From Acidobacteriota bacterium (GTDB lineage: Bacteria > Acidobacteriota > Polarisedimenticolia > Gp22-AA2 > AA152), in contig QHVQ01000008.1 of assembly GCA_003222305.1 (NCBI GenBank), positions 8,971-45,193 of the forward strand: a DNA stretch of 36,223 bases, read 5' to 3'. The notes under the pieces are model-generated. The model saw only the letters and a program-made list of their open reading frames with translations. It was not told the DNA's origin and did not search any database. Shown piece by piece: positions 2,140 to 30,347 of this stretch (positions are counted from its first letter, which is position 1; every line of letters starts with the position of its first letter). Made by a program: the position numbers and the translations under genes.

Positions 2140-2261
2140 GCGGGCCTTCTCCTTCGGCGCCGGGCGCCCGGGGAGGAAGGCTCATTCGGCGTGGATCAGA
2201 AGGTCCGGTTGGAAGAGAGGGGGTCGGTGGGAACCCGCGCCCTTCCCGTCGAAGGGGGATT

Positions 2262-2440
2262 CCATCGTCCCATAGGCAGGTCTCCTGGCTCGCGAATCAT
2301 CCTCGGCCCGTCCCCTTCCCGGGTTTCCCCAGTGGGCTTCCGACGGGCCTCGTCCTCGCTTACAGTGGCGGGGCCGCAGCGGATTTTCACCGCTTTCCCT
2401 AGATTCCTGCTCTTCCTTTCGCCTATGAGCGTTCCAAGTT
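2262..2440 (-). ncRNA. Cobalamin (AdoCbl-type) riboswitch
   Basis: Minus strand carries the B12 box GAGCCAGGAGACCTGCC (2275-2290 region) plus conserved core GGTGAAAATCCGCTGCGGCCCCGCCACTGTAAGC; sits just upstream of btuC-btuD-receptor. Boundaries approximate. Confidence 0.97.
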
Positions 2441-2531
2441 CGCCCGCCAATCTAGCACATCCGCCGAAGGGTGTGTCAAGCCGCCCGATGCCGGGTGATT
2501 ATTTCTTACCACTACCCGCGAGGGAGGAAGG

Positions 2532-4544
2532 TCAGGGGAGCAGCGGCGGCCAGGCGTCGGTGAAGGCGATCTGCAATCCCGCCGTAGCGGCGGCCCTGGA
2601 GCCACGCATGTCCGGAAGGGTTGAGACCGCAGTGTAGAGGGCCGTCGCTTCGGAGCGTTTTCCCTGAAGGTCGTAGATCCGCGCCGTCCAGAGCTGGGAC
2701 CAGATCCGAGCGGGGTCCTCGGAGGAGGTGGAGAGAGAAGTGACCTTGCTCCAGAGTGAGAGCGCCGCCGCCCAATCTCCCCGTTCCTTGAGGATACGGC
2801 CCTTCATGAAAAGGGCGCGAGGATTCTGGGGATCGTCGCTGAGCGCTTGGTCGATCTGCTCATCGGCGCGTAGGAGCTTCCCCTCCGCCATGAGCGAGTC
2901 TGCGAGGTCGAGGCGCCCGCTCACTCCTACCCGAGCCAGGAGGGGAAGGCGCTGGAGCGGATCCAGGGCGATGGAAGCCAAAGAGGCCTTGAGCGGAATG
3001 GCCATCTCCCCGGAGGCCCGATCGGCCGGGAAGAGAGCGCGCACTCTTCCGCCGCCGAGGTCTTCGGCGACGATCTCCACCGGCATGGAGGCGGTACCCG
3101 TCTTCCAAACGTCGGCGTGGACTTCGTAACCGTTGTCGGTCTTGTTGACCCGCACGTGGCTCAGGTAATAATCCAGATAATCCTTGGTGCGCAGCCACTG
3201 ATCGAAGAAGCCGTCCAGTTTTGCCGTGGTTGCTGCCTGGGCCCGCTTCTGGAAGTCCCGATCGGTGAGGATGAGCTGCTTGCTGGTCTTGAGAATTCCT
3301 CGGACCACCTCCTGCAGCTTGTCCTCCCCCAGAATGCCCCCCAGCATATGCATCACGGCCGCCGACTTGGCCTGGGCCACAATTCGTTCGAAATCCCAGT
3401 CCAGCTTGGCTCGATCGCTCCGGCTGCGCATGAGAGTGGTGTCGTAGCCGCGCAGCACTCCCACGAGGTAGCTGTCGTTGATCCCAGCCCTGAGGTACTG
3501 GCTGTGCAGGTCCAGACCATACTTCTTCGCCAGATAGTTTTGCTGGCACCAGAGGGCGAGGCCGTTGGCCACGAAGGGAGTGCTGTCGGAGGGGTCGCCT
3601 AGGCTCCAGCCCCAGACGAGCCTCGCCGCTTGCAGCGAGATGGCCTCGCGCAACGCCGTCTCACTGGTGGTCGGAGGAGCGTAAATGACCTGCGAGGAGG
3701 AGGCCCCGCGCGATTCCGCCGGGGCGGCGGGGAGAACGATGACCTGCGCGGGAGGATAGGCGCCGAGAAAGGCAAGGTAATAGGTGACGGCCTCGGAAGT
3801 CTCGGTCAGGACTTGCTTCGCCCAGGCATCCTGTCCCTCCGGTGAGTAGACCAGGATCGGAATGGTCCCCGCAGCGCCCCGGACCAATTGGAACTTCTCA
3901 CCGAGAGCGAGCGCGCAGTTGCGCACCCCTCTGGCCGAAAAGGTCGTCCTTCCACCGGAGGACGCCCCTTTCGCGGTTCCCGGGACGCCTGAAGAGATCA
4001 CCGTCCAGCCTGCGGGAGGCACGAGGGTACCCGTGATGTCCTTGAAATCATCGGAACCGAAAGTGCCGGCGCGATAAGCGCGAAATTTCAGATACCAGGT
4101 GGAGGCGTCGCGGTCGGGAATGCTCAGGTAGCCGGGCACCAAGTCAGCGGGGGAAAGCGCGCGCTCGTACTCGAGGGTGAAGGTGGTCTTGAACCCCGCC
4201 CCCAAGGGCGGGGAGAGCGGGACGCCGTAGGCCTCTTCCGCCGGCTTCCAGCCCAGGGTCGGGTTTTTCCCCTTGGCATCCACCAGAGCGGAAATCCGCC
4301 ACCGCTCATTGCCGGGGACGGCCGGATTGCCGGGCAGTCCAGGCGCCTCCAGAAAAAGAGTGTCCAGGGGCGCTTCGGTATCATTCTTGTATACGACCTT
4401 CTCCGTGCCGTGGATTGTGCCTCGAGCCGGGTCCACGTCGAGCTCAATCTGGTACTCGTTCGCTGCAAACAGGGAGGAAGTGGCCAGCAAGAAGAGGACC
4501 CTCACGGGGATCCGATGGAAGATGGTCGGCAATGTTCTGGTCAC
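2532..4544 (-). CDS. Secreted M1-aminopeptidase-like protein lacking catalytic residues, C-terminal TPR-like region
   Basis: N-terminal beta domain like M1 peptidases (YQIELDVDPARGTIHGTEKVVYKNDT), degenerate catalytic region, C-terminal TPR-like helices (ADEQIDQALSDDPQNPRALFMKGRILKERGDWAAAL). Track ORF begins 4628; GTG at 4544 has SD AGGAGG and precedes a signal peptide. Confidence 0.75.
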   Translation of the reverse strand: MTRTLPTIFHRIPVRVLFLLATSSLFAANEYQIELDVDPARGTIHGTEKVVYKNDTEAPLDTLFLEAPGLPGNPAVPGNERWRISALVDAKGKNPTLGWKPAEEAYGVPLSPPLGAGFKTTFTLEYERALSPADLVPGYLSIPDRDASTWYLKFRAYRAGTFGSDDFKDITGTLVPPAGWTVISSGVPGTAKGASSGGRTTFSARGVRNCALALGEKFQLVRGAAGTIPILVYSPEGQDAWAKQVLTETSEAVTYYLAFLGAYPPAQVIVLPAAPAESRGASSSQVIYAPPTTSETALREAISLQAARLVWGWSLGDPSDSTPFVANGLALWCQQNYLAKKYGLDLHSQYLRAGINDSYLVGVLRGYDTTLMRSRSDRAKLDWDFERIVAQAKSAAVMHMLGGILGEDKLQEVVRGILKTSKQLILTDRDFQKRAQAATTAKLDGFFDQWLRTKDYLDYYLSHVRVNKTDNGYEVHADVWKTGTASMPVEIVAEDLGGGRVRALFPADRASGEMAIPLKASLASIALDPLQRLPLLARVGVSGRLDLADSLMAEGKLLRADEQIDQALSDDPQNPRALFMKGRILKERGDWAAALSLWSKVTSLSTSSEDPARIWSQLWTARIYDLQGKRSEATALYTAVSTLPDMRGSRAAATAGLQIAFTDAWPPLLP

Positions 4545-4642
4545 GGGGGCCCCTCCTGTGGTGCAGAGCGCTTCGGATGAGCGCCTGCAAGACGAACCGA
4601 TGGTATCAGAGGGGGCTGGGGGGGACAACGGCGAGACGGCTG

Positions 4643-4682: not shown

Positions 4683-6035
4683 ATGGCCTCTCTTGCTTCG
4701 AGATTCGACGATTCCTTCCTGGAAAGAGCGGTGGCGGCGGTGCAGCTGTCGCGCGGCGCGTGGGCCGATCTCTTCCTGGAGCGAGCCTCCACCTTGAGAG
4801 CGGAATGGGACACCCGGAAGGGCCTCCGCATGACGCCGGGTCTGCGAGAGGGGTTCGCGCTGCGGCGCTTGGAGTTGGGACACCAACGGCTCATTTCGGA
4901 GGAAGGACTGTGGCCCGAGAGAATCCTCCAGGTATGTGGAAGCGGAGTCGATGCAGGGCACTCCCCAGCTACATTCGCGAAGAACTCGGAGGGCTTCTCC
5001 GATTCGACCGAGGCGCTGCGGGGAAGGCTGATGGAAGAGCTTGGCTCAGCGCTCACCTCGAGGCTCCCTCCGGAGTCCTCCTGTTCCCTCACTCTCGAGT
5101 GGCGTGAGAGAGAGACCTCCATCGCCGTTCGAGGCTGGCCAATCCGACGGAATCGAGGCACGCGGGTTGTGGTGACCTGCCGCCTGGCAGGTCCCTCAGG
5201 AGCCCTAAAAGCCGGCCTGGGAATGGGTAGCCTGGAGGCGCTGGCGTCCCTGAGACCTGTCGAGACGCTCCACCGGAAGCTGGAGGAGCGGCTTCGGGAC
5301 GAGCGGGAGGCCCGGGATGCTCCCCAGGGAGAATTCACCGTGATCTTGGCTCCCGGAACCGGGGGTGTTTTCTTTCATGAAGCCTGCGGGCATGCCCTGG
5401 AGGGAGACCTGGTCCTCCGTGGTTCGTCCCCTTTCAGGAATCTATTGGGGGAGCGCGTGGCGCCGCAGTTCGTGGGAGCGATGGATGACTCCAGCCAACC
5501 GGATTTGGAGGGGAGTTATGCCTTCGATGACGAGGGAGTACCGTGCCGGGGGACGGTGCTCATCGCCCAAGGAGTACTGAAAGCGTTTCTCACCGACCGG
5601 ATCGCGGGGGAAAGGCTGGGCCGAGGGAGCACTGCCAATGGCCGGCGCGAATCTTTTCGGGACTTCCCACTCCCGCGCATGTCCAATGCGTTCCTGATGG
5701 CGGGCGACGAGGACCCGGAGGAAATCCTCCGAGACACGCCCATGGGAATCTACGTGGGCCACATGGAAGGAGGACGAGTGGATCCTGCTACGGGAGAATT
5801 CCACTTCCGGGCCACTCAAGGCAGCCTGATCGAGCGGGGAAGGCTCACGGCGCCATTGCGCCCCTTCACCGTCTCGGGCAATGGGCCCGCGGCGCTGCGG
5901 GGCATTCAGCGGCTGGGAAACGATCTCTCGTGGGGGGACGGCGCCGGTTCCTGCGGCAAGGACGGGCAGCAGGTGCCTGTGGCTGCCGGAATTCCCACCC
6001 TTCGCGTTGCATCGCTCACCGTGGGTCCCGGCTGA
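4683..6035 (+). CDS. tldD: TldD-family metalloprotease
   Basis: HExxxH motif in GGVFFHEACGHALEGDL; C-terminal GSCGKDGQQVPVAAGIPTLRVASLTVG typical of TldD. Confidence 0.93.
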   Translation: MASLASRFDDSFLERAVAAVQLSRGAWADLFLERASTLRAEWDTRKGLRMTPGLREGFALRRLELGHQRLISEEGLWPERILQVCGSGVDAGHSPATFAKNSEGFSDSTEALRGRLMEELGSALTSRLPPESSCSLTLEWRERETSIAVRGWPIRRNRGTRVVVTCRLAGPSGALKAGLGMGSLEALASLRPVETLHRKLEERLRDEREARDAPQGEFTVILAPGTGGVFFHEACGHALEGDLVLRGSSPFRNLLGERVAPQFVGAMDDSSQPDLEGSYAFDDEGVPCRGTVLIAQGVLKAFLTDRIAGERLGRGSTANGRRESFRDFPLPRMSNAFLMAGDEDPEEILRDTPMGIYVGHMEGGRVDPATGEFHFRATQGSLIERGRLTAPLRPFTVSGNGPAALRGIQRLGNDLSWGDGAGSCGKDGQQVPVAAGIPTLRVASLTVGPG

Positions 6036-7808: not shown

Positions 7809-9206
7809 ATGATATCCTCCCCGACGGAGGCGCGCAGGATGTTCGAGAAGCTTTCGGAGGACGCTCCGCCCGAAGGGAGGCTGCAGAGCTTTTTGTCCGC
7901 ATCGGGGCGGGACCTGAGCCTGGCGGAGCGCATGGTAGAAGAGGCCCTTCTGGCCGGGGCAGAGGAGGCCGAAATCTACTTGAAGACCAGCGCAACCACG
8001 GGGATCTATCTGCAAGGCGGATTCGCAACCCTGGCGGGCGGCCACGAGCGCGGGTTGGCACTGCGCGTCTTCGATGGACGCGGAAATTTCTCGCATGCGT
8101 TCTCCTCCTGGACCCAACCAGAGGTCGGCGCCCGGATGATCCGGAGTGCCATGGCGGCGCTACGCTCGGTCACTGGAGACCCGGTGACGCCGGCGTTTCC
8201 CGCGCCATGCCCCGCGGCCCCGTTTCCTGAGATCGAAGGGGTGCTCGATGGGGCCGTGGTGGAAACCGATCCGGCAGCGAAGCGTGCCTTGCTGGAGCGT
8301 GCCCTGGCAGCGGCGTCTCGGCAGGCGGTTGCCAAGATCTTGGTTTCCTATCGCGATGGCGCCTCTCGCGTGGTACTGGCAAACAGCCGGGGACTGAAAG
8401 CCGTCTTCACCAGAACCTTGACACTGCTCACGCTTACGCGTTCGGAGGAAGGTGGACCCACCCTGCATGGGGAGGTGGCGAGCTGTCACCTGCATCCGGA
8501 CGAAATCACCGAGAGCACGGACAGGCTGCTCCGTCTAGATCGATCTGGACCCGAGGAAGTGATCCCTACCTCCTGCCTTCTTCTGGAGTCCGCCGCTGCC
8601 ACGGACATTGTGCGCTGGATCGAGCATGAGCTGGTCACGAGCCGGGCATCTCCCCCGGAAGTGGAAGGATTTCGCCGGATCGCGTCCGAGGCAGTGGAAG
8701 TGGTGGATGATCCTCTGCTGCCCGGAGGCGTGGCCAGCTCCCCCTTCGATGGCGAGGGATTTGCGTCGGTTCCTTTGCGACTCGTGAAATCGGGCATTCG
8801 ACTCGCGCGTTTCGACCAGGTTCCAGAGAATGGACCGGCGGGAACCAGGCATTCGGTCCGCTCCTCCTATCGAGACCTTCCGGCCCCAGGGGGAACCAAT
8901 TTGATCATTCTTCCCGGCCGCAGGCATCGGGATGAAATGCTTCAAAGCCTGGATAGGGGATTTCTCTTGGCAGCGCTGGAATGTGACGCCCGCGGGGGGC
9001 AGCGAGACGAGGCAACGCTGTGGCGGGGGATCGGCTGGGAGGTTCGGGACGGCCTCTTGACGAGACGATGCCGCCGAGTCCTGTTTCGGGCCGCGCCTCG
9101 GCAGCTTCTGGAGGGGATCCTGGAAGTCTCCCGGGATGTCCGTTGCTCCCTGCGAAGGGCCACCGCCCTGGGTTGTCCCGATCTGCTCATCCGCCCTCAG
9201 GACTAA
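7809..9206 (+). CDS. pmbA: TldE/PmbA-family protein (TldD partner)
   Basis: LAERMVEEALLAGAEEAEIYLKTSATTGIYLQGGFATLAGGHERGLALRVFDGRG matches the TldE/PmbA N-terminus; lacks HExxxH. Start could be ATG 7839. Confidence 0.82.
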   Translation: MISSPTEARRMFEKLSEDAPPEGRLQSFLSASGRDLSLAERMVEEALLAGAEEAEIYLKTSATTGIYLQGGFATLAGGHERGLALRVFDGRGNFSHAFSSWTQPEVGARMIRSAMAALRSVTGDPVTPAFPAPCPAAPFPEIEGVLDGAVVETDPAAKRALLERALAAASRQAVAKILVSYRDGASRVVLANSRGLKAVFTRTLTLLTLTRSEEGGPTLHGEVASCHLHPDEITESTDRLLRLDRSGPEEVIPTSCLLLESAAATDIVRWIEHELVTSRASPPEVEGFRRIASEAVEVVDDPLLPGGVASSPFDGEGFASVPLRLVKSGIRLARFDQVPENGPAGTRHSVRSSYRDLPAPGGTNLIILPGRRHRDEMLQSLDRGFLLAALECDARGGQRDEATLWRGIGWEVRDGLLTRRCRRVLFRAAPRQLLEGILEVSRDVRCSLRRATALGCPDLLIRPQD

Positions 9207-10182
9207 AGACATATTTTTCGAAGAGTGAAAAGATCGTGTGATAGCGCTGGTCCGTGAGCATGGCGCTACGGGCCATGCGGACCGTCCTCGGAATGTATCC
9301 TCGGTATTCCGCATTCCCCAAATGGGCGACCTGATACCCAAACGTTCCCAAGTCCTTGATGTTTCGTTGGAGCGCCATCCGAGCGAATTCCGCCTTAAAC
9401 TCCTCGGGGGAGAGGTCCCGCCGCCGGGCAAGAAAATATCGGATTCCCTCTTCCCTCAAATCCTGATCCAGATCGAGGGATGAATCCCTCAGCAGCGACG
9501 CCAGATCGTAGGAAGCCGGTCCCAGGCGGGCGTCCTGGTAATCGATGACCCGCAGACCCCCTGGGGTGATCATGAGGTTACGGGACTGAAAGTCGCGGTG
9601 ACATAGGACCCGCTTCGCGGAATCAAGGGAGGCAGCCAACCACTGGAAAAAGCTCTTGAATCCTGCCTCTTCCGAGGGGGCGGGGCGGACTCCCTGATAT
9701 CCCAGAACGAAGTGCTTGTAGAAGTGGTCCAGCTCCCAGAGGAGCTTTGCTTCATCCAGTGCCACCCGGCGAGCCGCGGCATGAGGGGGAAGTTCCCGCG
9801 TCCCGCTTTCCTGAAGAAGGATGATGATGTCGATGGCCTCCCGATAGAGGGCAGGTCGATCGATGGAGGGATCGCACAGCAATGCCAGCTGGAGTGTGGT
9901 GTCTCCGAGGTCCTCCAGCAAGATTGCCCCATATTCGGGGAAGACTCGTTCGATCTTTGGTACCGGGACCCCTACATGCTCCAGATGCTCGTGATTCCCC
10001 TTCAGTGGGAATCCCTCCCAGTCAAAGACGTGAGGGTAGAGCATGAGAACGCTCGAGGGGTCTCCGGGTGCAGTGAGTCTAAAAAACCTCCGGGTGGAAG
10101 CGTCTCCTTTCAGGGGGACAGCCACCGTCCCGGGCGGAAAATGCTCGTTAAGCAGGGAATTGAGGGCCGGGGGAGTGGACAT
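9187..10182 (-). CDS. Aminoglycoside-phosphotransferase-fold sugar kinase (AmgK-like)
   Basis: LCHRDFQSRNLM ... VIDYQDARLGPASYDLASLLRD; MALQRNIKDLGTFGYQ. ATG at 10182 overlaps the stop of the upstream nucleotidyltransferase (TAATG). Confidence 0.85.
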   Translation of the reverse strand: MSTPPALNSLLNEHFPPGTVAVPLKGDASTRRFFRLTAPGDPSSVLMLYPHVFDWEGFPLKGNHEHLEHVGVPVPKIERVFPEYGAILLEDLGDTTLQLALLCDPSIDRPALYREAIDIIILLQESGTRELPPHAAARRVALDEAKLLWELDHFYKHFVLGYQGVRPAPSEEAGFKSFFQWLAASLDSAKRVLCHRDFQSRNLMITPGGLRVIDYQDARLGPASYDLASLLRDSSLDLDQDLREEGIRYFLARRRDLSPEEFKAEFARMALQRNIKDLGTFGYQVAHLGNAEYRGYIPRTVRMARSAMLTDQRYHTIFSLFEKYVFSPEGG

Positions 10183-11267
10183 TAAAAGGATGCCAGGAGC
10201 AGCCCGTCCATCCGCTCTAATCCGTTCAGGTCTCCGCCATAAGCTCGTTCGTCCATGATAATTTTTCGGCGAAGACGGGCTCTTGAGGGAATGTGTGCGC
10301 CAAATCCCACGATGCATTCGTTCAGGGAAGCTTCCGCTCCGACCTGGACATCGTCCCAGAGGATGCTGCGAATGAGGCTCGCCCTGTGACGGAGGATCAC
10401 CCGGTCCCCAAGGACTGCGCCGGCGGCGAAGCTGCCGCCCTCCATTCTGATGTTTTCGCCCGCGAGAAAAGTTGGTTCTACTGTTCCCTCCAGGGCCTTA
10501 GCAGGGGTGGCGCTGTACACGCCTTCGCGCATACGGATTCTCTGGAGGTATCCGCTGTCACCGCAGGCCAGCAGCTCCAAAGAGCCATCCAGGTATCGCT
10601 GTGGTGTTCCGAGCTCTTTCCAGAACCCAAGGTGCAGATAACCTGAAATCCTGCCCTCTGCTTCGATCAGCCTTGGATAGACCTCACGGTTGATCTCGCT
10701 CTTCACGACAGGAGGGATCTCCCGAAAAATGGTCGGTTCAAGAATGTGTATCCCGGTGAAGTGATACTTGGGCACTCCAGAATCTTTTCCGGGCCGCCCG
10801 GCGATCCGGACAATTCTGCCAGTATGCTCCATCTCCACGGCTCCATACTCGGTGCCCTCCTGGTAGGGAGTTAGGACGAGTGTCGCCAAAGCGCGGGTCT
10901 GCCGATGGTGCTCTAGAGCCAACAGAAGGGCGCAGTCGGTGACGAAATCGGAATTGACCATAATCAATGTCCCGTCCACTAGAAGCCGTTCAGCGTTCTT
11001 GAGTCCCCCACCCGTACCGAGGATGACCGGCTCTTCCAGGAAGTTCACGAGAAGGCCCAGCGCGCGGATTTGTGGCTCGATACAACGGAGGGTATCGGGG
11101 CGGTAATGAAGGTTGATGGCCACCTCGGTGACGCCGTTTCGGGCCAGATGTTCGAGCAGGTGGAGGATTGTGGCACGATTGAGGAGTGGGAGGGCTGGCT
11201 TGGCGCGGTCCCAGGTGAGAGGTTTCATCCTCTCCCCGTATCCGGCGGCTAGTACCATCGCTTTCAT
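10182..11267 (-). CDS. Sugar-phosphate nucleotidyltransferase (MurU-like) with C-terminal region resembling a left-handed beta-helix
   Basis: MKAMVLAAGYGERMKPLTWDRAKPALPLLNRATILHLLEHL nucleotidyltransferase signature; C-terminal FLAGENIRMEGGSFAAGAVLGDRVILRHRASLIRSILWDDVQVG; SD GGAGGAGAT. Confidence 0.87.
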   Translation of the reverse strand: MKAMVLAAGYGERMKPLTWDRAKPALPLLNRATILHLLEHLARNGVTEVAINLHYRPDTLRCIEPQIRALGLLVNFLEEPVILGTGGGLKNAERLLVDGTLIMVNSDFVTDCALLLALEHHRQTRALATLVLTPYQEGTEYGAVEMEHTGRIVRIAGRPGKDSGVPKYHFTGIHILEPTIFREIPPVVKSEINREVYPRLIEAEGRISGYLHLGFWKELGTPQRYLDGSLELLACGDSGYLQRIRMREGVYSATPAKALEGTVEPTFLAGENIRMEGGSFAAGAVLGDRVILRHRASLIRSILWDDVQVGAEASLNECIVGFGAHIPSRARLRRKIIMDERAYGGDLNGLERMDGLLLASF

Positions 11268-14613: not shown

Positions 14614-15834
14614 TCAGTCCATCTGCTTGCGCAGGAATGTGGGGATGTCCAGCTCGTCCTGGAGCGAAGCGTAGGCGGGTACCGTCGTTGACTCCTCTGC
14701 CGGTACAAAATTCAGCGATCCCTCCCGCTGCTGTTTCCTCAGGAATGCGGGGGTGTCGGAAACCCGGTGCTCGAAGCCCCCGCGGTCCCGCATGGGGAAG
14801 GCCTCTCGTCCCCGTCCCACCGGAGTGCTGACGGAGGGGTCCTTGAACCCGGTGGCGATGACGGTCACTTTCATCTCCTCCGTCATGTTGGCGTCGATGA
14901 CCGTGCCAAAAATGATGTTGGCCTCGGGATCTGCTGTCTTCTGCACCAGGGTGGAGGCCTCGGAGACCTCGTGCAGCGTCATGTCAGGGCCTCCGGTGAT
15001 GTTGATGAGGATTCCCTTGGCGCCGTCGATGGCCGCGTCCTCCAGGAGCGGCGACGAGATGGCCTTCTGAGCCGCCTCCATGGCTCGGTTTTCGCCCCGG
15101 GCAATGCCTGTTCCCATGAGGGCCATGCCCATCCCCGCCATGATGGTCTTGACGTCGGCGAAGTCCAGGTTGATCTCCCCGGGAATGGTAATCAGGTCCG
15201 AGATCCCCTGCACCGCTTGGCGGAGTATGTCATCAGCGTATTGGAAGGCGGCGCCCAGGGCCATCTTTTTGTCCACCGTGGCCAAGAGCTTTTCGTTGGG
15301 GATGGCAATGACGGTGTCCACACACTCCTGAAGCTCTCTCAGTCCCAGCTCGGCTTGCTCCTTGCGGCGCTTCCCTTCGAAGGCGAAGGGCTTCGTCACC
15401 ACCGCTACCACGAGCGCACCCAGCTCCTGGGCCAGATTGGCGATGATGGGTGTCGCCCCGGTGCCGGTGCCGCCGCCCAGACCGGCGGTGATGAACACCA
15501 TGTCGGAGCCCGTGAGCAGCTCCAGAATCTTCTCCGAGTCTTCCAGTGCCGCATTGCGTCCCACGTCGGGGTTGGCGCCGGCTCCGAGTCCTTTGGTGAG
15601 CTTGGAGCCGATCTGCAGGCGCACGGGTGCCTTGGCGCTCCGCAGCGCCTGGCAGTCGGTGTTGGCGGCGATGAACTCCACTCCCAGGAGTCCGTTGGCG
15701 ATCATCCGGTTCACGGCATTGCCGCCGCCTCCTCCCACGCCCACCACCTTGATGTTGGCTCCCACCTCCTTGGCCTCTGCGAAGGCCAGGGTGGGCTTCT
15801 TGTCCTGGACGCCGGTCTCATCCATGCGAATCAT
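14614..15834 (-). CDS. ftsZ: Cell division protein FtsZ
   Basis: [17 protein letters not shown], tubulin signature GGGTGTGA, C-terminal DIPTFLRKQ. Track start 15930; ATG 15834 has a strong SD (GGGGGAG). Confidence 0.98.
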
Positions 15835-15926
15835 CGAATCTCCCCCTGACGGATTGGCCTCCCGGGTCTGGAAGCCCGGCAGGCGACTTTGAATTGGCCC
15901 CTTGGGAAGGCCGCTTCTCCTCTTCA

Positions 15927-17168
15927 TCAAAACAACTCCTGGATCCAGGTCCTCACCCGCACACCGACGCGGGCGAAAAAGAAAGGGTTCGTAGGCGGCT
16001 GGACTTCCACGCGCCGCGTCCGGTGGCGGTGGCCGAAGATCACCAGCCCCACCGGGGTGCTGAAGAGCGGGCTGTTCACGCCGTCCGAGAGGCCCCCGAC
16101 GTTTACCGGGGCGGCGCGGCGGACCGGCATGTCCAGCACGTCTTCGGCGATCTCAGGGATTCCCTCCATGATGGATCCGCCCCCGGTGAGAACCGCGCCG
16201 GCGTTGATGGACTTGTCAAATCCGGTGCGGACGATCTCCTCGTTGATGAGGGAGAAGATCTCCTCGGCCCTGGGCTGGATAATCTCGCAGAGAATCTGCC
16301 TGGAGAGCACTCGGGACTTGCGGCCGCCCACGCTAGGAACCTCGATGGTGTCCTCCTCGCTCACCAGGCTCGGAAGCGCGCAGCCGTACTTCTTCTTGAT
16401 CCTCTCGGCCTCCGGAACTGGTGTCCGGAGCCCCACAGCGATGTCGTTGGTGAAATGGTCCCCCCCTGTGGGGAGGATGCTAATATGGCGGATGGCGCCG
16501 CGCTCCAACAACGCCAGGTCGGTGGTACCGCCCCCGATGTCGATGAGAGCCACCCCCATGTCCTTCTCGTCCGGGGTGATGGTCGCCTCCGACGCCGCCA
16601 GCTGCTCCAGGACCGTGTCCTCCACCTCGATCCCCGCGCGGTTGACACAGTTCACGATGTTTTGGACCGCCGAGATGGAGCCAGTGACGATGTAGACATT
16701 GGCTTCCAACCGAGTGCCCGTCATCCCCACCGGATCCCCGATGCCATCTTGATCATCCACGATGAATTCCTGGGGCAATACGTGGAAAATCTCCCGATCC
16801 GGCGGGATGGACACGGCGCGAGCGGCGCTCAGGACCCGTGCCACGTCCGCCCGCGTGATCTCATGGTCCTTGGAGGCGATGGCAACCACGCCCCGGCTGT
16901 TGAACCCCCGGACGTGGCCGCCGGCGATGCCCACGAAGGCCTTCTCCAGGGCCACGCCGGCCATGAGCTCCGCCTCCTCCACCGCCGACTTGATGGAGTC
17001 CACCGTGGCGTCCAGATTGATCACCACCCCCTTGCGAAGGCCCTTGGAGGGGCAGCTGCCGAACCCGACGATGTCCAGGCCCCCGTGCTCGTTGGGCTCG
17101 GCCACGGTAATGCTTACTTTGGTGGTGCCAATGTCCAGACCCACAATGTGTTTGCTACTTCGCCCCAT
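15927..17168 (-). CDS. ftsA: Cell division protein FtsA
   Basis: [32 protein letters not shown]-terminal membrane-targeting-like helix [10 protein letters not shown]. Confidence 0.97.
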
Positions 17169-18009
17169 GCTCCGTGCTCCTCTTGGCCGCAGGCAGAATC
17201 GTGATGCGATCCTTCCATCTCAGATCCACGTACGTCACCGGGCCGTAATTCGCCGCGATGTAGTTGCGCATGGCCAGGTAATTGTCCAGGTTCAGCTCAA
17301 GCGCGTCGGGGCTGACTCGAAGCGGCGCTCCGCCGTCGTTGAGCCGCACCGCCAGTGCGTCGTCCCGGGACAGGTCCACTTCCGACACTTGGTCGGCCAG
17401 GACCGGGCGAGTGCGGTACAGGAGATTCACAAAGGCTGCCCCGAGTTGAATCTTCCGCTTCAACGTTTCCCGTCCGACCCGGTCCAGTCCGGTCAGGATG
17501 GGGAAGTCGTAATCAGCATACTGGGGTCCGAATCGGTCCAAGAGCGTCCCCTCGCCATCGGCCAGGTAGACGGTGCTTCCGATTTTCACCAGAACCTCGG
17601 GGGCGCGCTCCTCAATCTGAATGAGCAGCGCGTCTGGAATCCGCCGTTTGACGCTGGCACTCTTGATCCAGGGCAGCGATTGCAGCTTGGACTGCACTGC
17701 TTCGAGGTCCGCGGTGAAGATATTGCGACCCAGAACCGTGTCGGTCACCGTCTTGAGCTGGTTCGCCGGGGCCGCGGTGCCGCCTGAGACCAACACTTGG
17801 CGCACGGTGAACCGCTCCGAGTGGGTCAGGTAGCGGTGACCGCCCCAGGCCGCCAGCGCCACCACGCCCACTACCCCGAGGTGCAGGCCCGCCCATGTGG
17901 CCCCCTTGAGCAGGGTCTGATTGCGGCGTCGCTTGCGGACCTGCTCGTTGCGCGTCAGACGGAGGAAGCGCTCGTCAGAGGGGGGACCCACCGGTCGGCT
18001 CAGGCCCAC
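17155..18009 (-). CDS. ftsQ: Cell division protein FtsQ
   Basis: Single TM, POTRA-like FTVRQVLVSGG, SLPWIKSASVKRRIPDALLIQIEERAPEVLV; GTG 18009 overlaps murB stop. Confidence 0.9.
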   Translation of the reverse strand: MGLSRPVGPPSDERFLRLTRNEQVRKRRRNQTLLKGATWAGLHLGVVGVVALAAWGGHRYLTHSERFTVRQVLVSGGTAAPANQLKTVTDTVLGRNIFTADLEAVQSKLQSLPWIKSASVKRRIPDALLIQIEERAPEVLVKIGSTVYLADGEGTLLDRFGPQYADYDFPILTGLDRVGRETLKRKIQLGAAFVNLLYRTRPVLADQVSEVDLSRDDALAVRLNDGGAPLRVSPDALELNLDNYLAMRNYIAANYGPVTYVDLRWKDRITILPAAKRSTEHGAK

Positions 18010-18956
18010 ACCACCACCTCCTTCTCCAACGTCACGCCGAAGTCCTTGAGTACCTTTTCCCGGATGAGATCCGCGAGTCCCATGACGTCGGCGAAACTGG
18101 CGCCGCCCAGATTGACGATGAAGTTGCCGTGGACCTCGGAGATCCTGGCCGCCCCGCGGGTACTCCCCTTCAGTCCGGCCTCCTGGATTAGTCTGCCCGC
18201 GTTGCTCCCGGGCGGGTTTTTCCAGATGCATCCCGAGCTACGGACCCCTTGGGGCTGCGTGCGCTTTCGGTGATCCCGGTAGGCAACCAGAGTCTCTTCG
18301 ATCTCCTTCGACGCGCGCGGGGTCATTTGAAAAACCGCCTCCACCACCGCGCGCTCTCCCACGAAAGGCGCGCCCCGATAGATGAAATCGGTCGCCTCCA
18401 CCTTCAGCCGCTCCACGCGGCCTAGGCGATCAAGAAGAGTGACTTCCCGCACGCTGCTCTGCATGGAATCGCCGAAGGCACCGGCGTTCATCCGCACCGA
18501 GCCTCCCACGGAACCCGGCACCCCTTCGGCCCACTCCAGCCCCGAGAGAGCGAAACGAGTCAGGCGAGTGACCAGTGAAGGGAGACGGAGCCCAGCCGGG
18601 GCACGGACGCGGTGTTCCTCCACGTGCGGCTCTCCCACCAGGTCGCTGAAGCAGACCACCACCCCTCGGAATCCCGCGTCGGAGACCACCAGATTGGACC
18701 CCGCCCCCAAGAAGGCCACGGGAATGCCTTCGCCGATGAGTCCCTCCAGGGCTTGGGCTAGGGGAGGGACCGCGGCGGGTCGCAGGAGAAAGTCGGCCGG
18801 ACCACCAACCCCAAGAGTGGTCAGCCGGGCCAGGGGAAAGCTCTTCTCGTAAGGAACGCGGGAGGCGTCGAGAATTTCCCCTGCCTTCTCCACCCATCCT
18901 CCTGACACTGTTTCCTCCCATTCGCGGCGCCGTACCCCGTGGACCCGGGCCGTCAT
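18000..18956 (-). CDS. murB: UDP-N-acetylenolpyruvoylglucosamine reductase
   Basis: TLGVGGPADFLLRP, FLGAGSNLVVSDAGFRGVVV, GSVGGSVRMNAGAFG, SSGCIWKNPPGSNAGRLIQEAGLKG. Confidence 0.97.
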   Translation of the reverse strand: MTARVHGVRRREWEETVSGGWVEKAGEILDASRVPYEKSFPLARLTTLGVGGPADFLLRPAAVPPLAQALEGLIGEGIPVAFLGAGSNLVVSDAGFRGVVVCFSDLVGEPHVEEHRVRAPAGLRLPSLVTRLTRFALSGLEWAEGVPGSVGGSVRMNAGAFGDSMQSSVREVTLLDRLGRVERLKVEATDFIYRGAPFVGERAVVEAVFQMTPRASKEIEETLVAYRDHRKRTQPQGVRSSGCIWKNPPGSNAGRLIQEAGLKGSTRGAARISEVHGNFIVNLGGASFADVMGLADLIREKVLKDFGVTLEKEVVVWA

Positions 18957-20326
18957 GTGGTGTGTCCCATCCGCCTGAGGAATTCGTCCCCGACCTTCCA
19001 GACCGAACCAGCCCCCATGGTGATCACCATGTCGCCGGCCCGTGTCTTCCCGGCGAGGAACGCGGGAACTTCTTCGAGTTCCTGGACCAGGGTGACGTCC
19101 TGGTGGCCCCGCCGGCGGATCGCCTCGGCCAGGAGCTCGCCCGAGACGCCGGCGAGGGGCGGCTCCCCGGCGGGATAGATGTCCGTGACTACCAGCACGT
19201 CGGCGTTCTCGAAGGAGCGCGCGAATTCATCGTGGAGGGCCCTCACCCGGGAATAGCGATGGGGCTGGAACACCACCACGATGCGTCGATTCCATCCGCA
19301 CCTGGCCGCCAGAAGGGTGGCCTGGATCTCGGCCGGGTGGTGGCCGTAATCGTCGATGACCAGGATGTCGTTCACCTCGCCCTTGAGCTGGAAGCGCCGG
19401 TCCGCTCCCCCGAACTGGGCCAGGTGGGAGGCGATCCACTCGAAGGGCAGGTCCAGCTCGAGCCCCACTCCCACGGCCGCCAGTGCGTTGCTGATGCTGT
19501 GCAGGCCGGGCACCTTGAGGGCCATCAGGCCGAGGGGCATACCCCGAAGGGAGATCTCGAATCGGGAACTGAACTCCCGAAGCTCGATCCGACTGGCAAG
19601 CAGGTCAGGCTGTCCGGAAAGGCCATAGGTGACAATCTTCCGCCGCAGTCGAGGAAGAATCTCCCGGATGCGCGGGTCATCCAGGCAAACGATGCCGGTC
19701 CCGTAGAAAGGTACTTTGTTGAGAAAATCCACGAAGGCGTCCTGAAGCTTTTCCAGGCTCCCGTAGTGGTCCAGGTGCTCCGCGTCGATGTTGGTCACCA
19801 CGGCGATCGTAGTGGAAAGGTGAAGGAACGAACCGTCGCTTTCATCCGCCTCGGCGATCAGGAGGTCTCCCTTGCCAAGTTTGGCGTTGCTCCCCAGAAT
19901 CCCCAACCTGCCGCCGATAACAATGGTGGGATCCAGACCGGAGCCGGAGAGTACCTGGGCGACCATGCTTGTGGTGGAGGTCTTTCCATGCGAGCCCGCG
20001 ATGGCGACACCGTACTTCATGCGCATGAGCTCCGCCAGCATCTCCGCCCGCGGGATGACCGGAATCTGGCGCCGGCGCGCCTCCTCCACTTCCACGTTGT
20101 CGGCCTTCACGGCGCTGGAAATTACGACCACGTCCGCCCCTTCCACGTTCTTCGCAGAATGCCCGAGGGTGAACCGGCCTCCCAACTCCTCCAGACGGTG
20201 GGTCACTCCGCTCGCCATCAGATCCGACCCCGTCACTCCGTACCCCAGATTCAGAAGTACTTCGGCAATGCCACTCATCCCGATCCCGCCGATTCCGACG
20301 AAATGGACCTGTCGGACTTTTTTCAT
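18953..20326 (-). CDS. murC: UDP-N-acetylmuramate--L-alanine ligase
   Basis: HFVGIGGIGMSGIAEVL, AGSHGKTSTTSM, DDYGHHPAEI, QPHRYSR. Confidence 0.98.
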   Translation of the reverse strand: MKKVRQVHFVGIGGIGMSGIAEVLLNLGYGVTGSDLMASGVTHRLEELGGRFTLGHSAKNVEGADVVVISSAVKADNVEVEEARRRQIPVIPRAEMLAELMRMKYGVAIAGSHGKTSTTSMVAQVLSGSGLDPTIVIGGRLGILGSNAKLGKGDLLIAEADESDGSFLHLSTTIAVVTNIDAEHLDHYGSLEKLQDAFVDFLNKVPFYGTGIVCLDDPRIREILPRLRRKIVTYGLSGQPDLLASRIELREFSSRFEISLRGMPLGLMALKVPGLHSISNALAAVGVGLELDLPFEWIASHLAQFGGADRRFQLKGEVNDILVIDDYGHHPAEIQATLLAARCGWNRRIVVVFQPHRYSRVRALHDEFARSFENADVLVVTDIYPAGEPPLAGVSGELLAEAIRRRGHQDVTLVQELEEVPAFLAGKTRAGDMVITMGAGSVWKVGDEFLRRMGHTT

Positions 20327-21411
20327 GACATCAGCTCTTCCACCAGTTCCGCCACCCGCACCGTGGCGTCAGGACGAGCCAGAGGGGCGGCCGCCCTCTC
20401 CATGGCCGTCAGTCGATCGGGGTTCTTGAGGAGGTCCTCGATCTCACGGGCCAGCCGTTCTCCCGTCAGATCTCTTTCGGGGATGACCCGGGCGGCCCCC
20501 GCCTGCTCGAGCTTCTCAGCGTTGAGGCGTTGATGATCTCCGGCGGCGTGTGGGAAGGGGACCAAGAGAGCCGCCTTCTGACACGCGGTCAGCTCCGCCA
20601 CCGTGGTGGCCCCCGCCCGGGCGATGACCAGATCCGCCCTGGAATACTCTTCCGCCATGTTGTCCAGGTAGGCGACTACGCGAGCCTCAAGCCGCTGCGC
20701 CTCGTACGCTGCCTCGACAGGCTCGCGATCCTTCTCTCCGGTCATATGAACGAACCTGAGGGCCAGCCTTTGGGGCGCAAGGCGGGGCAGCGCTTCCATC
20801 ATCCGCTGGTTCAGAGTTCTCGCACCTTGACTCCCTCCGAAGATCAGCACGTAGAACGGGGTCCCCCGCGCCTTGGGCTTCACCGAGGCGAACTCCATTC
20901 GGATGGGATTGCCGGTCACCTCGCCTCTGCCTCCCAAGAGGTCCCTGGTCTCCTCGAAGGAGACGGCGATGCGATCCACCCAGCGCGCCAGGATCCTATT
21001 GGCCATCCCCGGTGAATAGTTCTGCTCCTGAATCATGGTCGGGATCCGCAGCAGAATGGCGGCTCCCACCACGGGGCCCGAGGAGAATCCCCCGACCCCC
21101 ACCACCGCCCGCGGCTTAAGCTCCCAGAGGACTCGCAGCGATTGCATCATGCCTATCCCCGTCCAGAAGAGCGCTCCTACTTTGGCCGAGATGCTGCGCC
21201 CCAGAAATCCCCGCGAGCTTACCTTCAGGAGCCGGAACCCGTGCCCTTCCACTACGCGCTTCTCGAACGGGGAACCGGTTCCGATGAAGACCACTTGCAG
21301 GCCGGGATGGCGCTGCTCGAGAGCCTGTGCTACCGCCACTGCAGGGTAGACATGCCCTCCCGTTCCGCCGCCGGCGAAGACCACCCGTCCCGCCAGACCT
21401 GTTTCCACCAC
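20323..21411 (-). CDS. murG: Lipid II synthase MurG
   Basis: VFAGGGTGGHVYPAVAVAQAL, IFGGSQGARTLN, ADLVIARAGATTVAEL. Confidence 0.97.
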   Translation of the reverse strand: MVETGLAGRVVFAGGGTGGHVYPAVAVAQALEQRHPGLQVVFIGTGSPFEKRVVEGHGFRLLKVSSRGFLGRSISAKVGALFWTGIGMMQSLRVLWELKPRAVVGVGGFSSGPVVGAAILLRIPTMIQEQNYSPGMANRILARWVDRIAVSFEETRDLLGGRGEVTGNPIRMEFASVKPKARGTPFYVLIFGGSQGARTLNQRMMEALPRLAPQRLALRFVHMTGEKDREPVEAAYEAQRLEARVVAYLDNMAEEYSRADLVIARAGATTVAELTACQKAALLVPFPHAAGDHQRLNAEKLEQAGAARVIPERDLTGERLAREIEDLLKNPDRLTAMERAAAPLARPDATVRVAELVEELMS

Positions 21412-21412
21412 C

Positions 21413-22501
21413 TCAGTTCGAGTGCTGGGAGATGTTCAAGAGCACTCCCACCGAAAGCAGTCCCACCATCAGCGAGGAGCCGCCATACGAGACGAACGGC
21501 AGCGGCAATCCCTTGGTGGGAAGCAGCCCGAGCACCATTCCCATGTTCAGGGCCCCCTGCACCACGAGGAACAGGGTCAGCCCCATGCCCAGCAGGTAGC
21601 CAAAGCGATCCGGGGCGCGCAAGGCGGCCCGGACACCGCGCCAGAGCAGCAGTCCGAAGACCAGCAACACCACCGACGTTCCCAGCAGCCCCAGCTCCTC
21701 CCCGATGACCGAATAGATGAAGTCGGTGTGCGGCTCCGGCAGGAAGAAGAGCTTCTGCCTTCCTTCACCCAGATTGACTCCCTGAATCCCGCCGCTGCCG
21801 AAGGAGAGCAGGGACTGCCGGATTTGGAATCCGGCTCCCAGCGGGTCATCCGACGGGTGGAGGAAGGTCATCAGGCGCTGCACACGGTAGTTGGCCTGGA
21901 AGATCATGACGATGAGACCCACGGACCCCAGCGCTCCGCCCGCCATCAGGATCTTGGGGTTCAGCCCGGCCAGATACAGAAGCAGGCCGGAGATGAGGCA
22001 GATGGCGGCGGCGGTACCCAGGTCGGGCTGCATGTAAATGAGAAAAGCAATGCTTCCCACGGCGATGCCGGCCGGGATCAGCGTCCTGCGCCAGTCATTG
22101 ATCTCCTCGGCCCGGTTGTCCAGGAATGAGGCCAGGAAGAGAATCAGGATGGGCTTCGCCAACTCCGAGGGTTGGAAAGAGAAGAAGCCCAGGGAGATCC
22201 ACCGACGCACCGGGCCGGAAGGAGTGAGAAGCGCCAGCATGAGCAGCGCAGCCACACCCATCAGCGAGCCCATAAGAATCGCGCGATTCCTTAGCCGGCG
22301 GTAGTCGAAGTTCATGGCCCAGATCATCAGAACGAATCCCGCGACCAATGCCGCCACCTGCTTGCCACGGTAGTGGTAGGGAGAGCCGAAGCGTTGCATC
22401 GAGAGCACGGCCGAGGCCGAATAAATCATGACCACCCCGAACAGCGAGAGAGCGACGGGAATGGAGAAGAGAATCCTGTCAAAGGCCAGCTTGCGTGACA
22501 T
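21413..22501 (-). CDS. ftsW: Lipid II polymerase FtsW (SEDS family)
   Basis: Polytopic; MIYSASA, FQPSELAKPILILFLA, PEPHTDFIYSVIGEELG, PFVSYGGSSL. Confidence 0.97.
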   Translation of the reverse strand: MSRKLAFDRILFSIPVALSLFGVVMIYSASAVLSMQRFGSPYHYRGKQVAALVAGFVLMIWAMNFDYRRLRNRAILMGSLMGVAALLMLALLTPSGPVRRWISLGFFSFQPSELAKPILILFLASFLDNRAEEINDWRRTLIPAGIAVGSIAFLIYMQPDLGTAAAICLISGLLLYLAGLNPKILMAGGALGSVGLIVMIFQANYRVQRLMTFLHPSDDPLGAGFQIRQSLLSFGSGGIQGVNLGEGRQKLFFLPEPHTDFIYSVIGEELGLLGTSVVLLVFGLLLWRGVRAALRAPDRFGYLLGMGLTLFLVVQGALNMGMVLGLLPTKGLPLPFVSYGGSSLMVGLLSVGVLLNISQHSN

Positions 22502-23880
22502 CAGCGCACCCGTGCGGCGTCGCCGCTCCCCGCAACCAGATCCTGTACTTTGCGCCGAAAGTCCTCACCCCGTTCTTCGAAATTGTGGTAGGCGTCGAAC
22601 GAGGTGCAGGCAGGCGCCAACAGGACTACCTGCCCGGGAGACGCCATCTCCCTCGCCGCTGCCACGGCCTGCGCCATGGTCTCCACCTTCCGCGTGGGCA
22701 CGGGCGCGCCCAGTTGGGCCGCGAGAGCCTCCCGAGCCTTTCCCATGAGGACCAAACCCGCCGCCCGCTCTCGGATCGCGGGAAGCAGCGACGCGAAATC
22801 GCCTCCCTTGTCCTTACCGCCCAGGATGAGGATCACCCCGCGCGGGAAGCTTTCCAGAGAGCGCGCCGCAGCGGCCACGTTGGTGGCCTTGGAATCGTTG
22901 TAGTAGCGGACCGAACCGACCTCTCCCACCAGCTCGATTCGGTGGGGGAGCCCCTTGAATCCCTTCAGCGTCCTGGCCATGCTCGCTGCGGGAACGCCAC
23001 AGAGGTCCGCGATCGTGATCGAGGCCAGGACATTCTCCAGGTTGTGCACCCCCACCAGGGGAATGTCTGCCACAGGCAGAATCGGCCGGCTGCTCCCGCC
23101 GCGGCGCAGCGTCACCATGCCGCTCTCCACGCAGGCACCGTCGGTCACCGTCACCTTCCGGCTGAACTGGGAGAGGCGCGCCTTCAGGCCGGGCGCAAAA
23201 GCGAAGGTCTGGGGGTCGTCTCGATTGAGCACCGCCGCGTCAGTGGCCCGCTGATTCTCGAAGATTCTTCCCTTGGCGGCACGGTAGGCTGCATGGTCCG
23301 GATAACGGTCCTGATGGTCCGGGGCCACGTTGAGCAGCACCGCCACGTCAGCCCGAAAGGTCTCAACACCCTCCAGCTGAAAAGAAGAGAGCTCCACGAC
23401 ATAGTGCTTCTTAGTCGAGTCGAGGGAGGCCATCTCGATCAATGGAGTGCCCAGGTTGCCGCAAGCCACCGCGTCCAGTCCTGCTTCGCTCAGAAGCAAA
23501 CTCGTAAGGCTCGTGGTGGTGCTCTTGCCATTGGTGCCGGTGATTCCGATGATTTTCCCCTTCAGGAAATGCGATGCGAACTCGATTTCGCCCCAAACTT
23601 TCACTCCCTTGACGCGGGCAGCCTGGATGGCGGGAAGGGTCAGCGGCACTCCCGGGCTGACCAGCACCCGGTCGGCCTCAGTGAAGTCGGCCTCATCGTG
23701 GCCCCCAAGAGCCAGGCGCGCCCCGCGCCGAGAAAGTTCCATCACCTCCGCGCCGTGGCCCTCGGTCCGGACATCGGTGAGGACCACCTGGCCTCCCAGA
23801 TCCAGCAGGAACCGGACGAGGGCGATCCCACTTCGCCCCGCTCCCACCACCAGGTATCGAAGACTCGAGACAGGCTCCAT
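22501..23880 (-). CDS. murD: UDP-N-acetylmuramoylalanine--D-glutamate ligase
   Basis: GITGTNGKSTTTSL, YYNDSKATNVAAAARSLESF, ILILGGKDKGGDF. Confidence 0.97.
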   Translation of the reverse strand: MEPVSSLRYLVVGAGRSGIALVRFLLDLGGQVVLTDVRTEGHGAEVMELSRRGARLALGGHDEADFTEADRVLVSPGVPLTLPAIQAARVKGVKVWGEIEFASHFLKGKIIGITGTNGKSTTTSLTSLLLSEAGLDAVACGNLGTPLIEMASLDSTKKHYVVELSSFQLEGVETFRADVAVLLNVAPDHQDRYPDHAAYRAAKGRIFENQRATDAAVLNRDDPQTFAFAPGLKARLSQFSRKVTVTDGACVESGMVTLRRGGSSRPILPVADIPLVGVHNLENVLASITIADLCGVPAASMARTLKGFKGLPHRIELVGEVGSVRYYNDSKATNVAAAARSLESFPRGVILILGGKDKGGDFASLLPAIRERAAGLVLMGKAREALAAQLGAPVPTRKVETMAQAVAAAREMASPGQVVLLAPACTSFDAYHNFEERGEDFRRKVQDLVAGSGDAARVR

Positions 23881-23917
23881 GGCGACCCGACAAGGCCCGG
23901 CAAGCGACGAACCGGAA

Positions 23918-25003
23918 CTACCGGAGCTTCAACGTTGAAAGGCTCACCAAGGCGAAAATGATGGCGATGATCCAGAACCGGATGATCACCTTGGGCTCCG
24001 GCCAGCCCGCCAGCTCGAAATGGTGGTGCAGTGGGGCCATTCGAAAGATCCTTCGACCTCGCATCTTGAACGAGCCGACTTGCAGAATGACCGAGACCGC
24101 CTCCATCACAAAGAGCCCGCCCACGAACACCAGGAGAATCTCCTGCTTGATGAGGACCGCCACGGTGCCGATGGCCCCGCCCAGGGCCATGGATCCGACG
24201 TCCCCCATGAAGACCTCGGCGGGATTGCAGTTGAACCAGAGAAAGCCCAGGGATGCGCCCACCAGGGCCCCGCAGAATACCGTCAGCTCACCGCTTCCCT
24301 TGACGTTCAGCACTCCCAGGTAGGTGGAGGCCACGGCGTTGCCCGCGATGTACACAAGGATGGCGAACGTAGCCGAGGCGATCAGCACCGAACCGATGGC
24401 CAGTCCGTCCAGTCCGTCGGTGAGGTTCACTGCATTCGCCGCCCCGATGATCACTACCATGATGAACGGGACGTAAAACCACCCCAGGTCAGGCGTCCAC
24501 CTCTTGAAAAACGGGAAGCTGAACTGGGTGGTGAATAGGTCCACGTGAGCCAGGTGGACCAAGTAAACGCCGATGGCGCCCGCCACCAGAATTTGGGCGG
24601 CCATCTTGCCGCGAACAGTCAGCCCGAGGGACCTCATTTTGCGCAGCTTGAGGTAGTCATCGAGGAAGCCGATGACACCGAAAGCGAGGGTGGACGCCAC
24701 GGCGATCCACACATAGCGGTTGGTGAGGTCAGCCCACAGAAGGGTGGGGAGCACCGCCGCCAGAATGATCAGCAGGCCCCCCATGGTCGGTGTGCCTTTT
24801 TTTGTGTGGTGGGTCTGAGGCCCCTCGGGTCTGATGTTTTGCCCTATCTGAAGATTCCTCAGCTTTCGGATCAGCCATGATCCCAGGCCGAAGGAGATCA
24901 GTAGTGCCGTCAGAGTGGACAACGCCGACCGGAAGGTGATGTACCGGAAGACGTTGAAGACCGAAATATATTCGTGCAGCGGGTAGAGAAGGCGGAACAG
25001 CAT
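23918..25003 (-). CDS. mraY: Phospho-N-acetylmuramoyl-pentapeptide transferase
   Basis: [54 protein letters not shown]. Confidence 0.98.
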
Positions 25004-26401
25004 CTAAGCCCCCTCCTCTTGCCCGCGGGAAGCGCGGATAGCGTCCACGACGCGTTCCATGGCCATGCCGCGAGAACCCTTGACCAGGAGCAGGTCTCCG
25101 GGCTGCAGTACTCTCGCGAGGAAGGCGGCGGCCGAGGAGGAATCCTCGAAATGTCGCACCTCCTCCATACCCGCCGCCTGCGCGCTTTCGGCGGCGTGCT
25201 TCGACAGGGGCCCCACTGCCACGAGAAGGGAGACGCCCGAGCGTGCCACCTGCTCCCCCAGGAGCCGGTGGGCCTGGTCTTCGATGGGGCCCAGCTCCAG
25301 CATGTCGCCCGACACCACTACTTTGCGAAGGGCTACCATACCGGAGAGAGTCTCCAGCGTGCGCTCCATGGCTTTGGGATTGCTGTTGTAGGTCTCGTCC
25401 AGAACCCGGATATCGCCCGGGAACCGGAGGAGTGCTCCTCGCATGGGCAAAGGCCGCGTCCGGGCCAGGCCGCGCCGGATGGCATCGCTTCCCGCACCGG
25501 CGGCGTGGGCCGCGGCAGCGGCCGCCAAGGCGTTGGCGACGTGATGCCGGCCCGGGAAGGGGATCTGTACCGGGAGCGGTTGCCCCAGGCCGCTGATCAC
25601 AAACGCAGTGCCTTCTTCTCCCTGGGGTTCCAAATCGATCGCGCGTACGCGCGCGCTCTCGCCGAAGCCGAAGCCAATTTTTTCCCCTGGGAAGGGAAGA
25701 GCGACCCGGGCAGCTTCGGGATCGTCGGCGTTGTACACCGCCACGGCTTGCTCGCGCATTCCCCGGAACAGCTCTCCCTTGGCCTCGGCGATGGCCGACA
25801 GCGAATGGAAATGCTCGAGGTGCACCGGGTGGACGTTGAGCAGAACTCCCACGTCGGGATTCGCGATCGCCGCGAGGCGGGAAAGCTCGCCGGGGTAGCT
25901 CATTCCCATCTCGAGCACCGCCGCCTGGTGTTCGGGCTGGACTCCCAGCAGGCAGAGAGGTAGCCCATAGGAATTATTGAGATTTCCGGTGGACTTCAAT
26001 GTGGGCATCGCCTCTTCCATGACTGCCGCCGACATCTCCTTGGTGGTGGTCTTGCCCGAGGATCCGGTGATCCCGAGCACCCTCAGGGGCTGCCGCTGCC
26101 GCACCCAATGGGCCAAATCCTGCAGCGCCTGGGTCGTATCAGCCACCCTCAGAATGGCCGCCTCGCCAGGGAAATCTCCCGCACGCCCCCGGGAAATCAC
26201 CACCGCCTTCGCGCCCTGGCGAATCGCCTCCGGCACGAACCGGTGGGCGTCGTGATTCGGACCCACGAGGGCAAAGAAAAGCTCCCCAACTTTGAGCGTC
26301 CGAGTGTCGATGGAGTAGGACTCCACCATCGTGTCGGGATCGCCCCGCAGCAGGACCCCGATGGTCCCCCGCGCAGCCTCCGCCAAGCTAATGCGCGCCA
26401 C
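25004..26401 (-). CDS. murF: UDP-MurNAc-tripeptide--D-Ala-D-Ala ligase
   Basis: ITGSSGKTTTKEM, NSYGLPL, LDETYNSNPKAMERTLETL; GTG 26401 overlaps murE stop by 14 nt. Confidence 0.97.
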   Translation of the reverse strand: MARISLAEAARGTIGVLLRGDPDTMVESYSIDTRTLKVGELFFALVGPNHDAHRFVPEAIRQGAKAVVISRGRAGDFPGEAAILRVADTTQALQDLAHWVRQRQPLRVLGITGSSGKTTTKEMSAAVMEEAMPTLKSTGNLNNSYGLPLCLLGVQPEHQAAVLEMGMSYPGELSRLAAIANPDVGVLLNVHPVHLEHFHSLSAIAEAKGELFRGMREQAVAVYNADDPEAARVALPFPGEKIGFGFGESARVRAIDLEPQGEEGTAFVISGLGQPLPVQIPFPGRHHVANALAAAAAAHAAGAGSDAIRRGLARTRPLPMRGALLRFPGDIRVLDETYNSNPKAMERTLETLSGMVALRKVVVSGDMLELGPIEDQAHRLLGEQVARSGVSLLVAVGPLSKHAAESAQAAGMEEVRHFEDSSSAAAFLARVLQPGDLLLVKGSRGMAMERVVDAIRASRGQEEGA

Positions 26402-29923: not shown

Positions 29924-29936
29924 GAGTGAAACTCCC

Positions 29937-30347
29937 TTAGCGCTCCGCCGCAAAAAGGCCGACCGATGGAGAGGGCCCTCGGGCGACACTCCGAGAAGCG
30001 GACCCTTCCCCGGTGAGCCGAATCTTGACGGTGTTATGGGGATCGGGCGGGACCAGTCCCAGCTGGGTCCGACCGAGCGCCTCGATGCGCCTCAGGTTCA
30101 GGAGGGTGGCCCGCTCCAGCTTCATTTGCCGGTTCCACTCCATCAGGCGGTTCTTCTCGGAGCGCAGCTGCTCGATCTGGTATCCGGTCCGGATGTACTC
30201 CACCTGCTGCCAAACATAGAAGAGAACCGGCATCAGCAGCGCGCCGCAGATCCAGACCACCCGCCTGAGCTCCCTGGCACGGGCCTCGTCCCGGTCTTTG
30301 ACCAGACGCTGGTTGAGGACCACGCGGCGCGACACCGCAGGATTCAC
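29937..30347 (-). CDS. ftsL: FtsL/DivIC-like cell division protein
   Basis: Short single-TM protein with coiled coil (YQIEQLRSEKNRLMEWNRQMKLERATLLNLRRIEALGRTQLGLVPP) between rsmH and ftsI; GTGA overlap with rsmH. Confidence 0.85.
   Translation of the reverse strand: MNPAVSRRVVLNQRLVKDRDEARARELRRVVWICGALLMPVLFYVWQQVEYIRTGYQIEQLRSEKNRLMEWNRQMKLERATLLNLRRIEALGRTQLGLVPPDPHNTVKIRLTGEGSASRSVARGPSPSVGLFAAER

Follow-up and report, generated by a model that had tools for sequence, protein, structure and literature searches.

Pseudopeptidases have been studied chiefly in animals and yeast, and M1 pseudopeptidases as such are already known. TAF2, a subunit of TFIID, is devoid of the zinc ligands, and there the M1 fold serves without catalysis. 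For Tma108, the yeast M1 homologue associated with nascent chains, it has been proposed that the M1 substrate pocket binds nascent polypeptide without needing catalysis (PMC11266112). Tma108 is the protein named for the M1 family in this 2024 review of inactive metallopeptidases, and the part of the review used here holds no bacterial M1 case (PMC11266112). Here we describe a protein encoded in a window of 36,223 nucleotides (the whole stretch of DNA that was analysed) from an Acidobacteriota genome. Judged from its sequence, it is a pseudopeptidase or non-peptidase homologue of M1, that is, a homologous protein whose catalytic residues are lost and whose gene is under purifying selection. The reading that we prefer, with a probability of roughly 0.6, is that it is exported, has no catalytic activity and puts the M1 fold to a new use in binding.

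The gene and the parts of its product are as follows.

2532..4544, minus strand: gene of the zinc-less M1-fold TPR protein, 670 aa, GTG start, uninterrupted ORF
4552..4557, minus strand: Shine-Dalgarno sequence AGGAGG, 7 bases 5' of the GTG start, read directly
4464..4544, minus strand: putative signal peptide, aa 1-27, hydrophobic, VLFLLATSSLFAA/N, from the sequence and orthologue comparison
3888..4460, minus strand: M1 N-terminal beta domain, aa 29-219, almost all strands in the AF2 secondary structure
2565..2924, minus strand: C-terminal TPR tail, aa 541-660, Pfam TPR_19 and TPR_14 above cut-off, seven helices in the AF2 model

The hydrophobic N-terminal stretch and the AA/N junction are common to this protein and those orthologues that have a complete N-terminus. 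The TPR tail claimed in the original prediction was borne out by Pfam matches to TPR_19 (28 bits, cut-off 25) and TPR_14 (25.1 bits, cut-off 23.5). The Pfam Peptidase_M1 match is weak; it covers aa 374-450 with E=7e-4 and its 19.7 bits lie below the gathering score of 27.7. Taken with the structural match given next, it nevertheless shows that the resemblance to M1 is not accidental.

From an alignment of 11 sequences an AlphaFold model of the protein was made (mean pLDDT 80, pTM 0.74), which was compared with the PDB using Foldseek. The best match was IRAP (E=1.1e-24), and ERAP1/2, PSA, PepN and the TAF2 chain of TFIID were among the further matches, with E values of 1e-20 or lower for IRAP/ERAP/PSA and TAF2. 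Because the model matches M1 crystal structures at this level, the protein, as modelled, keeps the M1 fold, in line with what had been predicted from the sequence.

Orthologues were found at 76, 68 and 66% identity in G001-G003, all three of the further genomes available from this family, the nearest named one being that of Acidobacteria bacterium PMV_2.74; together with the window genome they form a sample of four genomes in two genera, referred to below as the window family. The former zinc and catalytic site consists of the following elements.

3621..3635, minus strand: LQAAR, aa 304-308, at the HExxH position, invariant in the window family
3564..3566, minus strand: N327 where M1 peptidases have their third zinc ligand, Glu; one orthologue has Asp
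3684..3710, minus strand: degenerate GxMEN motif R-G280-A-S-S-S-Q-V-I, from alignment columns
3372..3374, minus strand: Q391 at the catalytic Tyr position, two residues before K393, from the alignment

The original prediction had LQAAR-x18-N replacing HExxH-x18-E in exact register, the GxMEN segment reading RGASSSQVI and the catalytic Tyr replaced by Gln, and the coordinates and alignment columns agree with all of this. Exactly 18 residues lie between R308 and N327, which is the M1 register, and in multiple alignments L304, Q305, R308, N327 and Q391 share columns with the H, E, H, E and Tyr of canonical M1 rows. The assignment of these columns is right, since the canonical rows show there H, E, H, E and mostly Tyr (11 of 12 rows). 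Thus all four zinc and general-base residues as well as the Tyr are replaced, and SSS (in GASSS) stands for MEN. The pattern reads LQ-R-N/D in all four window-family proteins, none of which has HExxH-x18-E, and the Tyr position is occupied by Q391 or, in one orthologue, by R. A zinc site elsewhere in the protein found no support either: a search for a second HExxH detected none, and only two of the six His (347 and 399) are inside the peptidase part.

For gene decay or a faulty assembly as the source of these replacements nothing speaks beyond the loss of the catalytic residues itself, and we consider this explanation barely credible. The ORFs are intact, free of frameshifts, and LQAAR is invariant in all four genomes. 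Pairwise dN/dS (NG86) was 0.13-0.35 for all pairs; with dS close to 1 or higher for most pairs the ratios are approximate, yet they are still far below 1. By these ratios the gene is under purifying selection, and sequencing error or recent decay is ruled out by orthologues carrying the identical motif. The earlier statement that the loss does not look like simple decay therefore stands, and close homologues were indeed without HExxH, their substitutions being fixed as clades. Ordinary M1 genes are present as well in G001 and G003 (E about 1e-45); none was found in G000 (87% complete).

Invariant columns in the window family amount to 12/21 (57%) and 20/30 (67%) in the two former active-site helix segments, 81/192 (42%) in the N-terminal domain and 5/5 in LQAAR. 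Conservation in the two helix segments equals or exceeds that elsewhere in the protein. These values bear on a second explanation, in which the M1 domain serves, as in TAF2, only as a rigid structural scaffold offering its surface for contacts, with the groove unused and the TPR tail doing the work. Such a role would fit the TPR tail, whose 56% invariant columns put it on a par with the M1 part, and the presence among the PDB matches of 7edx_B (E=3.5e-21), which we take to be the TAF2 chain of TFIID. It does not fit well with the conservation of the motif helices, nor with replacement residues that are fixed within lineages (LQ-R, RE-Y-Q, NT-H-N, RR-D; see below), observations which suggest that the pocket itself is under selection. 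We regard the scaffold role as unlikely, though as the most serious of the alternatives. Against reuse of the protein for binding, it has to be counted that N327 is not strictly fixed in the window family.

To see the protein among its relatives, 396 Acidobacteriota genomes were searched with a profile, and full-length M1-TPR homologues were found in well over 100 of them. Ninety sequences were extracted, 99 rows including canonical M1 proteins were aligned, and a tree was built on the M1 part after deletion of the motif columns. One large clade (clade A; bootstrap/SH-aLRT support 100/98 in the careful tree described below) comprises 74 sampled members from 23 families and 56 genera, all with the M1 + TPR layout. 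HExxH-x18-E is found in 0/74, and no member retains more than one of the four. The replacements are stable per lineage, with RE..Y/Q, N[TA]..H/[ND] and RR..x/[DE] in one branch each. The TPR tail common to both had first suggested that the window protein belongs to clade A, but forcing the window family into that clade cost 47 log units (AU p=1.4e-8). A single ancestral loss in all zinc-less rows was likewise rejected, as forcing all HExxH-less rows together cost 86 log units (AU p=9e-6). Because both constrained groupings are rejected, the zinc site was, by these tree tests, lost more than once, that is, at least twice in the phylum Acidobacteriota. Two Ca. Aminicenantes contigs, L035 and L055, which had been candidates for HExxH-less rows, were discarded, the motif stretch being missing or unreadable in both.

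In 11 of the 23 clade A families, spread over two deep branches, lpxB lies directly upstream of the M1-TPR gene, its absence in the other families possibly reflecting in part short flanks; in f36, f50 and f58 the chain is mnmA-lpxB-M1-TPR.

L155-L157, L163-L165, plus 2.5-5 kb loci L058-L136: lpxB-linked clade A loci

From this gene order the zinc-less M1-TPR gene of clade A is a candidate new lipid A/envelope gene. The linkage cannot be transferred to the window gene, where it is absent: lpxB was directly upstream in 0/7 loci (with repeats) of the window family (f1), it lies on other contigs than the zinc-less M1 gene in G001-G003, and no lpxB was near any clade B gene examined.

The window family belongs to a small M1 clade, clade B (support 100/99), which was enlarged by a second profile search before the careful tree was built, and within it groups with L180 (support 98/84; both bootstrap/SH-aLRT). 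Fifteen rows of this clade keep HExxH.

L166-L177, L179, L180, L185: clade B rows with HExxH kept, third ligand Ile/Leu

All 15 have Ile or Leu for the third-ligand Glu, and at the Tyr position His (14 rows) or Glu (1 row). Such relatives possibly possess a re-arranged gluzincin metal site. According to the tree topology, two lineages of clade B, one of them the window's, lost HExxH too; in the HExxH-less rows the Tyr position is occupied by Q or R in the window family, by K in f28 and by R in f17. None of the aligned clade B members has MEN in the exopeptidase loop. The joint loss of HExxH and of the His at the Tyr position is suggestive but not significant, because there are only two independent transitions. 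Since the HExxH-keeping relatives have altered ligand and Tyr positions, the site seems to have been re-modelled before it was lost, and since clade B relatives show stepwise loss, the window protein is the end of an altered-M1 lineage and not a fresh pseudogene. In f17 and f28 two VWA-domain genes lie 3' of the clade B gene (L149:11234-14759 and L151:11146-13938).

The altered site of all 15 HExxH-keeping rows could also be taken to mean that the old pocket houses a rewired enzyme, with a different metal site or metal-free catalysis, and H347, H399, C333 and acids are invariant in the window family. However, the peptidase part has only two His, no conserved HExxH-like or His-Cys-rich motif is present, and the HExxH-less rows have Q/R/K instead of the His at the Tyr position. 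We hold a rewired enzyme to be improbable, more so than the scaffold.

The gene neighbourhood was inspected for hints at a ligand.

2257..2441, minus strand: cobalamin riboswitch (Rfam RF00174, 102 bits), ahead of the btuC, btuD and TonB receptor genes
4683..6035, plus strand: tldD-like gene with HEACGH intact, upstream of and divergent from the zinc-less M1 gene

The zinc-less M1 gene is followed downstream by btuC, btuD and a TonB receptor gene. Because the riboswitch stands before them, these genes form a separate B12 unit, and a role of the M1 gene in B12 uptake is weakened accordingly. The divergent arrangement with the tldD-like gene is kept in G002 and G003. With the B12 genes under their own riboswitch and lpxB linkage absent, the gene context points to no ligand. 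Other genes in the window include a PmbA-like partner without the HEACGH motif (7809-9206, plus strand), a glycerol-3-phosphate dehydrogenase gene that lies between the tldD-like and PmbA-like genes on the opposite strand, amgK/murU-like genes (9187-11267), a division and cell-wall cluster with ftsZ, ftsA, murC, ftsW, murF and PBP/ftsI (14614-29989, minus strand) and a gene for an M16 protein that has a single HVIEH and resembles YfmF in its second half (32183-34813, plus strand).

Given that the loss took place two or more times within the phylum and was preserved by selection, a new use of the old enzyme fold in binding is probable. Also counted for the binding role are the parallel loss in clade A, the same M1-TPR layout and the lineage-fixed replacement residues. 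For the window protein we infer export, inactivity, groove binding and TPR docking. The M1 domain would retain its fold and the former active-site helices but would have neither zinc, general base and oxyanion Tyr, nor the GxMEN anchor for a free N-terminus; the old substrate groove would bind a polypeptide or another envelope ligand non-covalently, and the C-terminal TPR tail would dock a partner. A wider and more tentative proposal, to which we give less than even odds, is that in Acidobacteriota envelope binding proteins arose from M1 peptidases on two or more occasions, once as the phylum-wide, lpxB-tied M1-TPR family and once, in the window's lineage, through an intermediate with a rewired metal site, in which HExxH was kept, the Glu ligand was gone and His stood at the former Tyr position, before the metal was lost completely.

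Many genera of one bacterial phylum carry zinc-less M1 proteins; the loss has occurred repeatedly, and intermediates survive. If the proposal is true, living relatives form a natural series from enzyme through altered metal site to metal-free receptor, and repeated loss with living intermediates makes the order of enzyme-site loss and binding-role retention directly testable. Automatic annotation is expected either to overlook such proteins, where they fall below the Pfam cut-off, or to label them aminopeptidases. Our literature searches returned nothing on bacterial M1 pseudoenzymes or on a link between lpxB and aminopeptidases, and in the literature searched we found no bacterial, phylum-wide, repeatedly evolved set of TPR-tailed M1 pseudopeptidases of which intermediates are still living.

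In comparison with known systems, the window protein resembles the M1 aminopeptidases (IRAP, ERAP1/2, PSA, PepN) in domain order, in predicted fold (E 1e-24 to 1e-20) and in the 5+18+1 helix spacing, but differs from them in lacking the zinc ligands, the general base, the Tyr and GxMEN and in carrying a TPR tail in place of their long C-terminal helical domain. The clade A proteins share its M1 + TPR layout and lack of a zinc site, whereas their loss was independent, their fixed replacements are other ones and they are linked to lpxB in 11 families. TAF2, itself among the structural matches, is like the presumably non-catalytic window protein in its use of an M1 fold, but is a eukaryotic nuclear scaffold that has no TPR tail and is not exported. 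Tma108 retains HExxH-x18-E, its sole change being in one substrate-binding residue, and, unlike the presumably exported window protein, it is cytosolic and ribosome-bound. By analogy, Tma108 and TAF2 would be the closest precedents, Tma108 for use of the groove and TAF2 for pure scaffolding.
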